From: Dyella telluris
GTDB taxonomy: Bacteria > Pseudomonadota > Gammaproteobacteria > Xanthomonadales > Rhodanobacteraceae
Reading direction: 5' to 3'
Assembly (NCBI RefSeq): GCF_014297575.1
Contig: NZ_CP060412.1
Coordinates: forward strand, 1,798,001-1,862,000
DNA: 64,000 bases
The notes under the pieces were generated by a model, which worked only from the letters and a program-made list of their open reading frames with translations, was not told where the DNA came from and searched no databases. Positions 8,377 to 58,012 of the stretch are shown here, piece by piece. Each line of letters opens with the position of its first letter. Positions within the stretch are counted from its first letter, which is position 1. The position numbers and the translations under genes were made by a program.

Positions 8377-8755
8377 CCCTCTCCCCGGAGGGGAGAGGGA
8401 GAAGTGGTGTGCATCGCACATCCATCTGATCGCAATGAAGGAGCGCAGCGACGTTCCGCTTTAAGTCCTCAGCGCATCGGCGCGTTGCGAAGCGCTTCGA
8501 GGTACCCGCTTGGTAGAGGCGGAGGTCGCCACGCAGCAACGTTCCTCAGCCGTTCGGGCTTCTCCCGAGGGAATGCTGCCAGCCTTTAAGGCCATTTCTT
8601 TGGGTTACTTTTCTTTGGGCCAGCAAAGAAAAGTGACTCGGCCTCCGGCAGGAGGTCGAAACGCCCCCGCTGCGTAAGCGGCAAGCTGGCGGAATCACCG
8701 CATACCGAAGGCCAGAGCCAAGGCACTGGATCCCAGCTTCCGCTGGGATGACGGT
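8377..8755 (+). repeat. composite multi-hairpin intergenic repeat, copy A
   Basis: This copy begins with the hairpin CCCTCTCCCC-GGA-GGGGAGAGGG (8377-8399), continues through a conserved core (about 8450-8600), a 32-base hairpin (8605-8636, arms TTACTTTTCTTTG / CAAAGAAAAGTGA), a small hairpin CCTCC-GGCA-GGAGG, a hairpin around CCGCTGCGTAAGCGG, and ends with a REP-like palindrome near 8730-8755. The same order occurs at 23.4 kb and, inverted, at 40.4 kb. This copy lacks the flanking GTAGGAGCGCAC pair. Open frames across it are not genes. Confidence 0.88.
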
Positions 8756-23263: not shown

Positions 23264-23797
23264 CTGTAGGAGCGCACCCTGTGCGCGACAGCCTGACAGA
23301 GCGGTATCGACACGACGCTGCGGTCGCGCACAAGGTGCGCTCCTACAGGGGGGGATCGCACCGTGTGAAGCCCGTTTCTTTCTCGCCTCAGTGCTCACCC
23401 CAGTCCTCTCCCGAACGGGAGAGGACGAGCGACAGGGGATGTTCAACGTGAACACCCGAGTGGCAAGGAAGGATGTGCCGCGCAGCGGCACGACGCTCCG
23501 CGTTAAGTCCTCTTCGCATCGGCGCGTTGCGAAGCGCTTGGAAGTACCCGCTGTGTAGAGGCGAAGGTTGCAAAGCAACAACGTTCCTCAGCCGTTCGGG
23601 CTTATCCCACCGGCATGCTGCCAGCCTTTAAGGCCATTTCTTTGGGTTACTTTTCTTTGGGCCAGCAAAGAAAAGTGACTCGGCCTTCGGCAGAAGGTCG
23701 AAACGCCTCCGCGGCGTAAGCGGCCCGCTCGCGGAAACGCCCGAGACCAAAGGCCCAGAGCAAAGTCACTAGATCCCGGTCTTCGCCGTAATCACGA
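23264..23797 (+). repeat. composite multi-hairpin intergenic repeat, copy B, with flanking REP pair
   Basis: The module opens with an inverted REP pair, CTGTAGGAGCGCACCCTG (23264) and its complement ending at 23348. A 55-base linker follows, then the hairpin CCTCTCCC...GGGAGAGG (23404-23425), a conserved core containing a GTTGC-AAA-GCAAC hairpin, the GCCTTTAAGGC element, the 32-base hairpin at 23647-23678, CCTTC-GGCA-GAAGG, the CGTAAGCGG element, and a degenerate REP end. The order and spacing match copy C (inverted). Short frames across it are not proteins. Confidence 0.88.
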
Positions 23798-40144: not shown

Positions 40145-40436
40145 GGAAGCACTCCGTGGGCAATGGCAATGGGCAACGGGCGGACAGCCCGACGCCGCGC
40201 TCTTTGCGCCACGGTCATGCGACATCCTCCCCGCGTGCACCTTACCGTAAAACGGTGGCGGGGCATGCGTGACGGATGACGCATAGGGGAGGGGCGACTC
40301 TTCGCCATCTGCGAGCAGGCATGCGATGGCTTGGGGGCGCCTTCACTGTTCTATTGGGGCCGTCTTCGCAACGAAAGTGGGAGATCCTTTTCAACAGGTG
40401 AGGGGTGGGTCATCTGGGCTCGCCGTCTCGTCGAAA
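40145..40436. other. promoter region of the amidohydrolase gene, little evident
   Basis: This stretch starts the 904-base gap between the amidohydrolase and acylase genes. I see a degenerate GGTCATC element around 40398-40420 and no gene. The promoter of the minus-strand amidohydrolase gene must lie here. Confidence 0.35.
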
Positions 40437-40972
40437 CCGTCATCCCAGCGAAGGCTGGGGTCCAATGCCTTTGCTCTCTGCCTTCGGTAGTCACGCAGGC
40501 GCCAGGTTGCCGCTTACGCAGCGGGGGCGTTTCGACCTCCTGCCGGAGGCCGAGTCACTTTTCTTTTGCTGGCCCAAAAGAAAAGTAACCCAAAGAAAAT
40601 GGCCTTAAAGGCTGGCAGCATGCCGATGGGATAAGCCCGAACGGCTGAGGAACGGTGTTGCTTGGCAACCTCCGCCTCTACACAGCGGGTACAACAAAGC
40701 GCTTCGCAACGCGCCGAAGCGAAGAGGACTTAACGCGGAGCGTCGTGCCGCTGCGCGGCACATCCTTCATTGCCCTTAGGTGGTTCACGTTGAACATCCC
40801 CTGTCGCTCGTCCTCTCCCGTTCGGGAGAGGACTGGGGTGAGCACTGAGGCGAGAGCTGTTTGAGCCTCGCACGGTGCGAAACACCCCCTGTAGGAGCGC
40901 ACTTGTGCGCGACCGCAGCGTCATGTCGATTCCACTCCGTCAGGTGGTCGCGCACAAGGTGCGCTCCTACAG
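40437..40972 (-). repeat. composite multi-hairpin intergenic repeat, copy C, with flanking REP pair
   Basis: The same module as copy B in reverse orientation. Reading the minus strand: REP pair (40972-40889), linker, hairpin CCTCTCCC...GGGAGAGG (near 40830-40812), core with a GTTGC-CAA-GCAAC hairpin, GCCTTTAAGGC, the long hairpin at 40588-40555, CCTCC-GGCA-GGAGG, CCGCTGCGTAAGCGG, and a REP-like end (40460-40437). The long hairpin has one extra base pair relative to copies A and B, with a T and an A inserted in opposite arms. Confidence 0.88.
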
Positions 40973-41048
40973 ACAAGCCCGCATGCGTCACTTGTGCAAG
41001 CCAGCTCACCCAAATGACGCGCTTCGGTACATGGCGAACCGAACGCTG

Positions 41049-43241
41049 TTACATCCCGGGGTGGTAGGTGCGCTCCACGTGACCGCGCAGATCTTCCGGC
41101 CAGAAGTACACGGCGCGCAGGTTGCCGGTGGTGTAGCGCTCGGCCTCGTCGTTGAAGTGCGGTGAATCGGGATGGCCGCTTTCACCGCCGGCGGTGATGG
41201 CGCGCGCGCGCACCTTGTCACCGAACTCCACTGCCGCCACGAAACTGTTGCCGCTGGTGCCGTAGTAACGGCGTGTTCCCGGCCACCGATGCGCGCCGAA
41301 GGAGGCGAGCGAACCCCAGCGTGACGACGTGAACGGCACCGGGATGCTCGGCTTGCCGTCATCGAAGGGCTGCTGCAGGTCGCCGTTGAGGCGCTGGTAG
41401 CGGTTCACCTCGCCCCACGGCACGCCCCAGCTGCCGAAATCCTTTTCCAGACGGTCGGCGGCTTCCGCCAGCGCGCCAAGGCGCGCCTTCGGGCCCGCGC
41501 GCTCGGCCATGATGTCGTACACGGAGAGCCCTTCGGACACGTCGGACTTGTCCACCTTGTCCCACAGCGTGTCGCCCCAGAACACCGCCAGCGAGGTCGG
41601 CATGGAGGCGATGCCCCAGCGATAGTCCCAGCCGCGCAGCAGCGCGATCGGCCCGGCCAGTTTCGCCTTCAGTGGATCGTTCGACGGCAGCGCGTCGTAA
41701 TCCTTCACCAGGATAGGAACCTGTCGCGCGAAGGCCGGCAGGTACGAGTCGAACGCGGCCGTGATGAGGGACGGCAGGGTGAAATCGTGCCTGCCGCTCA
41801 ACACCATGGTGGCGTGAATGCCGCGCGGGTTCTCGCCGACGCTGTCCATGTAGCGCGGATAGTCTTCGCGCTTCGGGCTGTCCGGACCGGCTGCGGAATA
41901 CGGCCAGTCATTGGTGTTCATGATCCAGCCGTTGGCGGGATTGAGCAGGTGCGGCGCGGCATCCAGCGGCAGCAGGCCCTGCCAGTCGGTGGCCGGATCG
42001 CTGCCGTCGACGGGCTTCGTATAGTCGAAGCGGTTGTCGCGTTTTGGGATGAACTGCGGATGCAGATAGGCGATCTCGCCCTTGTCATCCGCGAAGATGG
42101 TGTTGTTCGACGAGTTGGCCTTGAGCTCGGCGATCTTCATGAAGCTCTTGAAGTCGGTGGCCTTGGTGCGCAGCCAGCTCTGCTCCAGCGCTTCCAGTGG
42201 CTTGTTCATCAGCGCAGTGGCGATCCACTTGCCGCCCTCCTCGCGCACCACCGGTCCGTGATGCGTGGCGTAGGTGTTGAACGTGCGTTCGCCCATCGCC
42301 CCATCCGCCTTGCGGTAACTGATGGTGATGGCCCGCGTGCTCACCGGGCGCACGTCCTTGCCGTAGCGATAACCAAGCTTGTCGCCGTCATGCACGATGG
42401 TTTCGGCAAACTCGTCCACCACGTCCGCCGTGGTCGAGGTATGCATGAAGCCGATGTGCGGGTTGAAACCCTGGTAGATGAAGAACTGGCCCCAGGTCAC
42501 CGCGCCGTACACGTTCAGGCCCGCATCGCTGGACATCTGCAGCTCGGAGCGGAAGAAGAACGAGGTGTGCGGATTGATCAGCAACAGCGCGTGGCCATCC
42601 GCGGTGAGTTTCGGCGCGATGGCGATGCCGTTGGAACCGGTGGGCTCCACCCAGCTGGACGGCGTATCGACGAAGGCCACCGTCTCGGTGGGCTTGCCGT
42701 AGAACGCCTGCAGCTCTTTCAGGGAGACACGTTCGATGTCGCCACCGATGCTGCCTTCGCTGAAGCTCAGCGCCATCCACGGCTCGAAGTGCGTGATGAC
42801 GCGCGGGTGTACGTCGGGATGCGTGGCGAGGTAGAAGTTCAGGCCATCGGCCCAGGCATCCATCAACTCGCGCAGCCACGAAGGGCTTTTGGCGTAGAGA
42901 CGCTTGAGCTCGGCGGGATCGATCCACAACTGCTGGCGAAGATCGGACCATATCGCCTTCTCGCCCTCGGCCTTGGCCAGCCAGCCCAGCGAGTTGAGGT
43001 AGTTGGTTTCGACGCGGTTGAAGTCGTCCTCGGCCTGCGTGTACGCCATGCCGAACACGGCGTTGGCGTCCGTCTTGCCGTGCACGTGGGCGATGCCCCA
43101 GTCGTCACGGGTAACGGTGACGGCGGCGGACTCGGCTTTCCAGCGGGCGTCGTCGGTGCTGGCGGCGTGGGCCGCAGAGGCGACAGATAGGCCGCCCATC
43201 ACGGCGAGAGAAAGGATCTGCCTGGTGAAGTATCTGGTCAT
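41049..43241 (-). CDS. exported penicillin-acylase-family Ntn hydrolase
   Basis: A 730-residue pre-protein: signal peptide (about 33 residues, SVASAAHA), alpha chain, then the autocatalytic Ser203 in EPTGSNGIAIAPK, which becomes the N-terminal nucleophile of the beta chain. Beta-chain motifs such as LLINPHTSFF, TYATHHGPV and NTIFADDKGEIAY fit the family, which includes penicillin, aculeacin and acyl-homoserine-lactone acylases. The substrate cannot be assigned; quorum-signal or lipopeptide deacylation is possible. The Ser is followed by Asn-Gly rather than Asn-Asn or Asn-Met. Confidence 0.9.
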   Translation of the reverse strand: MTRYFTRQILSLAVMGGLSVASAAHAASTDDARWKAESAAVTVTRDDWGIAHVHGKTDANAVFGMAYTQAEDDFNRVETNYLNSLGWLAKAEGEKAIWSDLRQQLWIDPAELKRLYAKSPSWLRELMDAWADGLNFYLATHPDVHPRVITHFEPWMALSFSEGSIGGDIERVSLKELQAFYGKPTETVAFVDTPSSWVEPTGSNGIAIAPKLTADGHALLLINPHTSFFFRSELQMSSDAGLNVYGAVTWGQFFIYQGFNPHIGFMHTSTTADVVDEFAETIVHDGDKLGYRYGKDVRPVSTRAITISYRKADGAMGERTFNTYATHHGPVVREEGGKWIATALMNKPLEALEQSWLRTKATDFKSFMKIAELKANSSNNTIFADDKGEIAYLHPQFIPKRDNRFDYTKPVDGSDPATDWQGLLPLDAAPHLLNPANGWIMNTNDWPYSAAGPDSPKREDYPRYMDSVGENPRGIHATMVLSGRHDFTLPSLITAAFDSYLPAFARQVPILVKDYDALPSNDPLKAKLAGPIALLRGWDYRWGIASMPTSLAVFWGDTLWDKVDKSDVSEGLSVYDIMAERAGPKARLGALAEAADRLEKDFGSWGVPWGEVNRYQRLNGDLQQPFDDGKPSIPVPFTSSRWGSLASFGAHRWPGTRRYYGTSGNSFVAAVEFGDKVRARAITAGGESGHPDSPHFNDEAERYTTGNLRAVYFWPEDLRGHVERTYHPGM

Positions 43242-57929: not shown

Positions 57930-58012
57930 CTGTAGGAGCGCACTTGTGCGCGACCATCCAACGTAGCGGCATCGACATGGCTCCGCGGTCGCGCACAAGT
58001 GCGCTCCTACAG
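57930..58012. repeat. GTAGGAGCGCAC REP pair
   Basis: CTGTAGGAGCGCACTTGTGC at the left and its complement GCACAAGTGCGCTCCTACAG at the right, separated by about 35 bases. It is the same inverted REP pair as at 23264 and 40889, but here it stands alone without the composite core. It lies between two terminators of convergent genes. Confidence 0.88.

Follow-up and report, generated by a model that had tools for sequence, protein, structure and literature searches.

The window, by which we mean the whole 64-kb stretch of DNA analyzed, lies in a host genome of 4.99 Mb on a single contig and contains three copies (A, B and C) of a repeat built of several hairpins. One protein of the window has its nearest named relatives in six Dyella records, at 86-92% identity, and the host is therefore Dyella-like; Dyella belongs to the Xanthomonadales/Lysobacterales, so a preliminary description of the window came close in naming Xanthomonadales. 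All three copies were found where that description had placed them, with the parts it listed in common, and copy B matches the complement of copy C at 94% over 266 nt. The repeats are real elements but not the whole units they had been taken for: each is one half, the G arm, of a longer composite. The CCTCTCC hairpin assigned to every copy is alike in B and C (CCTCTCCCGAACGGGAGAGG), but copy A carries a different hairpin (CCCTCTCCCCGGAGGGGAGAGGG, 8377-8399) and lacks the stretch in between. In the following list, the TM_ECO pattern was CCCTCNCCC..GGGNGAGGG..GGGNGAGGG with one mismatch allowed, after the consensus given in PMC4666352.

8365..8399, minus strand: terminal C-rich/G-rich mirror hairpin of copy A, fitting the TM_ECO pattern on the minus strand
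8442..8713, plus strand: G arm of copy A (core, GCCTTTAAGGC, mirror hairpin, GC hairpin, CGTAAGCGG), 272 nt, 88% to copy B 23484-23755
8594..8637, plus strand: pyrimidine tract and mirror hairpin of copy A, ATTTCTTT-GGGTTAC-TTTTCTTTG-GGCCAG-CAAAGAAAA-GTGAC
8642..8655, plus strand: second hairpin of copy A, CCTCC-GGCA-GGAGG
8727..8754, plus strand: outer end of copy A, a CGTC-tagged REP-like palindrome (minus strand CCGTCATCCCAGC..GCTGGGATCCA), judged by eye against PMC3733652
23118..23182, minus strand: remnant of the T-arm outer end at copy B (element positions 186-253 at L179 770-834, 79%)
23265..23347, no single strand: inverted pair of GTAGGAGCGCAC REPs (REPIN) adjoining copy B, REP class named after PMC2817692
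23403..23797, plus strand: G arm of copy B, including the CCTCTCCCGAACGGGAGAGG hairpin and outer end
23636..23679, plus strand: pyrimidine tract and mirror hairpin of copy B
23684..23697, plus strand: second hairpin of copy B, CCTTC-GGCA-GAAGG, a compensatory form
40437..40834, minus strand: G arm of copy C
40554..40600, minus strand: pyrimidine tract and mirror hairpin of copy C, with three matching single-base insertions
40536..40549, minus strand: second hairpin of copy C, CCTCC-GGCA-GGAGG
40890..40971, no single strand: inverted pair of GTAGGAGCGCAC REPs adjoining copy C

Two compensatory changes had been pointed out among the copies. The difference between CCTCC/GGAGG in A and C and CCTTC/GAAGG in B is real. 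The paired T and A insertion in the long hairpin of copy C is real too, but a third base is inserted in the tract that precedes the hairpin (ATTTTCTTT in copy C versus ATTTCTTT), making the change three-stranded. Most safely, copies A-C can be described as dispersed arms of a mosaic element that have structure and are in part degraded. At 57931-58011 of the window a GTAG REP pair stands alone, with no element beside it. The sole Rfam match of the window at the gathering score was a tRNA.

The composite to which these arms belong is about 1.05 kb long and non-coding. A 19-mer of its hairpin gave 89 matches on both strands of the host genome at no more than two mismatches, compared to none for the same sequence read backwards; 62 of the matches had the G form (61 exact and one with a mismatch) and 27 the T form. 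At 28 of the 61 host loci two hairpins lay 618-746 bp apart, always minus then plus and thus facing outward, and 27 of these pairs were G-T and one G-G. The full form consists of an outward-facing G arm, a middle with a GTAG REPIN and other palindromes, and an outward-facing T arm opposite. We scored the sites by alignment to one full copy, L040, counting an arm as present at 80% or more. By this measure the G arm was present in 55 of 62 G sites (51 of them also with the middle GTAG REP pair) and both arms in 42 of 62, the T arm being in the expected place and orientation; in 16 of the 62 the T arm was almost absent at that place. The T-arm cover of copies A, B and C was 0, 0.22 and 0, respectively, and the T-arm GGA hairpin was present in 44 of the 61 host loci. 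Some pieces resemble known repeats. The GTAGGAGCGCAC pair in the middle is like the GTAG REPs and REPINs associated with RAYT proteins in PMC2817692, which are likewise intergenic and downstream of genes, and by eye a CGTC-type palindrome like the CGTC REPs of PMC3733652 stands at the outer ends. However, those REPs are units of 20-40 bp, whereas ours form parts of a 1-kb composite. The possibility of a coding element was rejected, with zero genes called within the 58 composites classified.

These 58 composites lay between convergent genes in 30 cases, tandem genes in 27 and divergent genes in one, a position downstream of genes; adjacent gene pairs of the window, as called by a simple codon-score gene caller, were 11 convergent, 24 tandem and 10 divergent (n=45). 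Such placement would suit a terminator or 3'-end processing element, in which hairpins at convergent gene ends would halt or shield transcripts and would need no particular ligand, and the same orientation bias has been published for REPs (PMC3733652). However, the one copy scanned (L040) contained one terminator-like site against a shuffled mean of 1.4, so that a GC hairpin followed by a T tract was not above chance. In addition, the T tract stands before the long hairpin, not after it, and 1 kb with two arms exceeds a terminator's needs. We consider this explanation very unlikely. A promoter-like site was looked for in the element and none was found. The GC skew of 20 samples places the origin at about 2.2 Mb and the terminus at about 4.6 Mb, and the 4.05-4.99 Mb of the host genome around this terminus contained no element copies. 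A replication-strand bias was among the rejected ideas: by hand count, the left replichore showed none, with 17 copies plus and 18 minus, and 20 of the 27 on the right were minus. The bin at 2.0-2.25 Mb, next to the presumed origin, contained nine copies.

We analyzed the long hairpin together with the pyrimidine tract before it, whose sequence mirrors the 5' stem strand. Run lengths, in the order tract, left stem, right stem, were 4,4,4 in 36 of the 61 host G-form hairpins, 3,3,3 in 23 and 4,3,3 in two, and the combination 3,4,4 did not occur. For 24 distinct tract-stem combinations of GGTTAC hairpins, drawn from 16 genomes including the host and counted beyond the first three positions, 100 of 107 positions matched as a mirror, compared to 53.4±5.7 after shuffling (none of 20000 shuffles as high); the mirror fitted better than a direct repeat in 19 combinations, tied in five and was worse in none. 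These loci had been selected by the hairpin pattern. A replicate that used hairpins adjoining loci picked by the TwoAYGGAY model only, with 16 of 30 loci usable, gave 81 of 87 matches against 64.9±3.0 (none of 10000 shuffles as high). The outer stem of the replicate loci also changes pairwise (CTTAC/GTGAG, CCTAC/GTAGG, GTTCC/GGAAC, AGTAC/GTACT). One group of genomes (G207, G312, G360, G384, G418), with just three or four T positions to match, is weak evidence.

Hoogsteen pairing requires a mirror and not a direct repeat, so the mirror covariation is compatible with a triplex, although it does not prove that one forms. The joint change of the tract and both stem strands would fit an intrastrand triple helix, in DNA or RNA. 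In four TwoAYGGAY loci (L361, L364, L375, L381) we saw by eye a purine mirror hairpin in the position of the pyrimidine one, which would be a better fit to a triplex of DNA than to one of RNA. One purine example reads GGGAGAG-TCCA-GAGAGGGG. The tract and hairpin also resemble the layout of the ENE/MALAT1 triple helix, in which a U-rich tract, a second U-rich strand and an A-rich strand have matching order and polarity. ENE/MALAT1 triple helices belong to eukaryotic and viral RNAs, and we claim no common descent. A third strand that mirrors the stem is equally the organization of the intrastrand triplex motifs TM_ECO and PIT (Holder et al. 2015, PMC4666352), and a C-rich/G-rich motif of the TM_ECO pattern was found near 35 of 62 sites compared to 4 of 108 control 2-kb pieces. 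The Dyella arm hairpin differs from these motifs in being A/T-rich and of pyrimidine type, and that paper, as far as consulted, does not describe it as a conserved family.

By homology, the T arm reads as a divergent TwoAYGGAY RNA (Rfam RF01731). Both have two adjacent hairpins with ANGGAN loops and covarying stems, in the same order and on the same strand, and RF01731 matches fall within elements of other genera. We built a covariance model (R1) from 33 aligned Dyella T-arm cores alone and searched it against 59 loci. It gave 50 matches at E<=1, the best, at TwoAYGGAY loci of other genera, reaching 4.3e-9, while the best E among 36 unrelated control loci was 0.37. In 17 of the 30 loci found by the RF01731 search, R1 overlapped the Rfam match on the same strand at E<=0.01, so that detection was reciprocal. 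R1 matched both strands in 18 sources, a count in which three places appear twice under two locus names; 17 of these faced outward and the exception was weak. A TTACTTT-type motif stood within 160 nt downstream in 13 of 30 TwoAYGGAY loci and upstream in none. The Dyella copies differ from the Rfam family in lying under its threshold: none of the host genome matched the Rfam model (6 of 277 candidates scored, the curated 43-bit score not being reached), and for the T arm of L040 no RF01731 match was listed up to E 10. The Rfam match moreover ends before the mirror and second hairpins, covering one arm and not the outward pair. A second Rfam family, Bp1_684 (RF02421), covers the hairpin arm in the genome of L212 and on a B. 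cenocepacia replicon (L328), but it is a Burkholderia sRNA candidate named from one genus and has no link to TwoAYGGAY in the Rfam output.

The two GGA-loop hairpins of the T arms have covarying stems, a TwoAYGGAY feature confined to these arms. In the T-arm alignment A1, 98.4% of the cells in stems were paired and eight pairs were changed on both sides, compared to 2.4±1.1 in shuffles, of which none of 500 was as high, and 0-2 in slid controls. Of five measures, four (paired cells, pairs and cells with changes on both sides, and covariation score) exceeded all 500 shuffles and every slid control, while 122 of 500 shuffles reached the fifth, further pair types; the copies are related, so these shuffle counts do not amount to a probability. 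GGA was present in both loops of all 56 arms, with varying letters on either side. At a single position of the hairpin, the pair was T-G in 44 of the 56 arms and T-A in 12, and never C-G or C-A. The preliminary description had suspected selection on structure, to be doubted if covariation did not rise above background. Covariation is present, in the mirror hairpin across genera and in the T-arm stems on four of five measures, and the earlier interpretation is partly supported in that it was right to suspect structure.

TwoAYGGAY was published in 2010 as an RNA of unknown function and rated as probably an RNA and probably not cis-regulatory (PMC2864571), contrary to its Rfam type, which is cis-regulatory. 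In 2014 its role was still a predicted one, that of binding CsrA (PMC4333381). The host genome contains a CsrA gene, and among 398 genomes of the phylum, 40 had the hairpin pattern, 34 had TwoAYGGAY (27 over the cut-off) and 20 had both, giving a p of 4e-14 with ancestry ignored. Five of 30 fetched pattern hits (L210, L211, L217, L224, L225) were unlike the arm, which affects two of the 20 genomes (G351, G364). CsrA was present in all 34 TwoAYGGAY-positive genomes compared to 220 of 398 overall, an association that is confounded by ancestry. Seven hairpin-pattern genomes (G246, G294, G398, G402, G438, G235, G452) lacked both CsrA and a TwoAYGGAY match; the hits in G235 and G452 looked like chance and the other five are arm hairpin genomes. 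Since 13 of the 33 hairpin-pattern genomes with CsrA also lacked TwoAYGGAY, the joint absence is suggestive only. Both T-arm GGA loops resemble the consensus of CsrA/RsmA sites.

Copies A-C are the G-arm halves of a dispersed, non-coding, non-autonomous composite, and our best guess, a tentative one, is that its T arm is an RsmA/CsrA-binding 3'-UTR RNA. The T arm would work as RNA, either after processing or as part of the 3' end of transcripts that read through, and its two ANGGA-loop hairpins would be putative RsmA/CsrA binders. The pyrimidine tract and hairpin may form a triple helix that caps or stabilizes the RNA, or may act as a DNA structure during spread. The G arm would offer the same cap without the GGA hairpins, so that A-C may be caps, or remnants that have lost the RsmA-binding part. 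The GGA arm was not found in copies A-C, the best R1 match of the window (14.6 bits, E 0.25) lying away from them, and the RNA idea therefore concerns the family and not necessarily A-C themselves. Most economically, the structure, GGA loops, placement and CsrA gene that we observed would be read as an RNA whose two GGA hairpins and structured cap lie at transcript 3' ends, a putative RsmA/CsrA ligand whose transcription, binding and effect we infer. The RsmA/CsrA-binding RNAs, such as CsrB, RsmY, RsmZ and RsmU, offer a parallel in their GGA hairpins, RsmU coming from a 3'-UTR (PMC7694677), whereas the Dyella composite, a putative RsmA binder, is a dispersed repeat. According to the same paper, Xanthomonas has no CsrB, RsmY or RsmZ homologue, and the 3'-UTR-derived RsmU binds RsmA there. 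RsmU with all its GGA motifs changed still bound RsmA in vitro (PMC7694677), which makes GGA alone a weak guide.

It would go further to propose that TwoAYGGAY RNAs do not stand alone but are arms of dispersed, outward-paired elements ending in a MALAT1/ENE-like triple helix, and that in Xanthomonadales they have spread across the genome as a 3'-UTR sponge of RsmA/CsrA in place of CsrB, RsmY and RsmZ, as the 44 host loci with a T-arm GGA hairpin would illustrate; we think this improbable as a whole. As far as PMC7694677 goes, only RsmU accounts for the relief of RsmA in Xanthomonas. Were T arms to bind RsmA, dozens of almost identical repeats between genes, which resemble REP debris, would amount to a layer of regulation. 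Should such binding not occur, the three-strand covariation would still point to a naturally selected triple helix common to distant bacteria, which has rarely been shown from sequence alone. The family link, together with hairpins that covary over three strands, makes a long-standing RNA puzzle testable. As far as we searched the literature, the link to TwoAYGGAY and the third strand are new: among the matches listed, no title or abstract treats either the composite or the GGTTAC hairpin as a family, in a search with subscription papers and preprints mostly outside its scope.

The proposal of the preliminary description that the repeat is a transcribed RNA gains, for the T arm, from its homology and the invariant GGA loops, but not from testing the stems for strand specificity. 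In the stems available to either strand, departures of the G-T and A-C types numbered 8 and 6 in the G arm and 8 and 5 in the T arm, with no RNA-type strand bias. An apparent G-T excess (72 versus 9) was rejected as an RNA signature; it arose because the fold had been picked on that strand, and it is gone in stems common to both. The structure could have been selected as DNA, in the form of palindromes and intrastrand triplexes that serve replication, recombination or nucleoid binding, with the RNA likeness inherited and unused here. This would explain the missing bias as well as T-arm folding that is equally unusual on both strands (z -7.6 and -7.9), and it gains from the mirror symmetry of pyrimidine and, by eye in the four loci, purine tracts. 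Purine-type triplexes are known for DNA. The empty region around the GC-skew terminus and the frequency near our sites of the TM_ECO pattern, a DNA triplex motif studied in PMC4666352, point the same way. However, selection as DNA leaves unexplained why GGA is kept in both loops of every arm and why the T-G pair is kept on one strand only, and Holder et al. found no support for stable TM_ECO triplexes in vivo, although transient ones were not excluded (PMC4666352). We regard selection as DNA as possible but rather doubtful, and retain the RsmA/CsrA-binding RNA as our preferred reading of the T arm.

We evaluated the earlier suggestion of a non-autonomous mobile unit from the occupancy of sites. 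The element was matched in 20 of 20 genomes of the genus. At the site of copy B, the homologous ends of two convergent kinase genes are separated by about 880 bp here, compared to 14-25 bp in three relatives and 382 bp in a fourth, and the element was absent from the stretch fetched from all 15 relatives. The corresponding stretch of a close relative (L180 1118-1500) contains palindromes of the CGTC type and a second, partial copy of the neighboring kinase gene's 3' end. At the site of copy C the element was absent from all 11 relatives compared, save a 38-bp edge match in L107, and the hairpin from all six scanned. Between the genes that flank copy C (window 40240-41049), four Dyella relatives (L100, L101, L123, L128) have 2.1-2.6 kb of other DNA, and L099 has 0.4 kb. 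At two other host sites, each compared in 15 of 19 relatives with a few stretches shortened by contig ends, the hairpin was present in seven and absent in eight (L040) or present in eight and absent in seven (L048). The suggestion remains plausible in that occupancy differs between species. However, we detected no duplication of the target site, and the arm hairpin was absent from all 15 Y1_Tnp loci of the genus.

A purely selfish mosaic, MITE- or BIME-like and copied in trans by a hairpin-recognizing Y1/HUH transposase, would owe its structure to the enzyme's need only. About 60 scattered copies and the element-free sites in relatives agree with such an origin, as do the GTAG REPIN inside the composite and the fact that the host's one Y1 gene is flanked by the same REP. 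The GTAGGAGCGCAC REP pair found beside this Y1 (RAYT) gene recurs at 23265, 40890 and 57931 of the window, a GTAG REPIN/RAYT feature that concerns the middle piece only. In some genomes, moreover, T arms resemble one another: the identity is 0.964 for two in G019, whose best match to host copies is 0.902, and 0.952 for two in G002, whose best is 0.913, the mean identity of the host T arms being 0.910. In G011 and G014, however, divergent arms coexist that are no more alike within a genome than between species, and one G011 arm is nearer a host copy (0.920) than its neighbors; some genomes show turnover or homogenization, with no clean rule. Further against a selfish origin, a Y1_Tnp match was obtained in only 11 of the 20 genomes although the element was matched in all 20, the Y1 loci are without the arm hairpin, and the GGA loops are unexplained. 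The terminal arms are inverted with fuzzy ends, and no target-site duplication was seen, although the one search pattern was too strict (both ends in 1 of 62 sites). We judge a purely selfish element unlikely. The sole Y1 transposase match of the host genome (G000:C1:1757001-1757249, L209) has GTAGGAGCGCAC REPs at three places around it.

The phage collection gave no matches to the full element; the plasmid collection gave short matches to the full element in five records, to copy A in two, and to two arms from other genomes in one and none. Pairs of this kind, facing outward, were also seen in other Gammaproteobacteria and on a plasmid from the Fusobacteriota. An autonomous version was among the rejected ideas: in two of the wider pairs (L248, L254), ORFs lie within the pair, as read from translations, L244 contains a masked stretch, and the Y1_Tnp loci of the genus are without the arm hairpin. 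The plasmid is the Ilyobacter polytropus megaplasmid pILYOP01 (NC_014633.1; L326, L331, L333-L352), where no TwoAYGGAY was found in the stretches scanned. It carries 21 GGTTAC hairpins, 12 of which form six minus-plus, outward-facing pairs 345-427 bp apart, with nine others. By eye, the hairpin of pILYOP01 is followed by an A/T-rich palindrome in place of the G/C-rich one.
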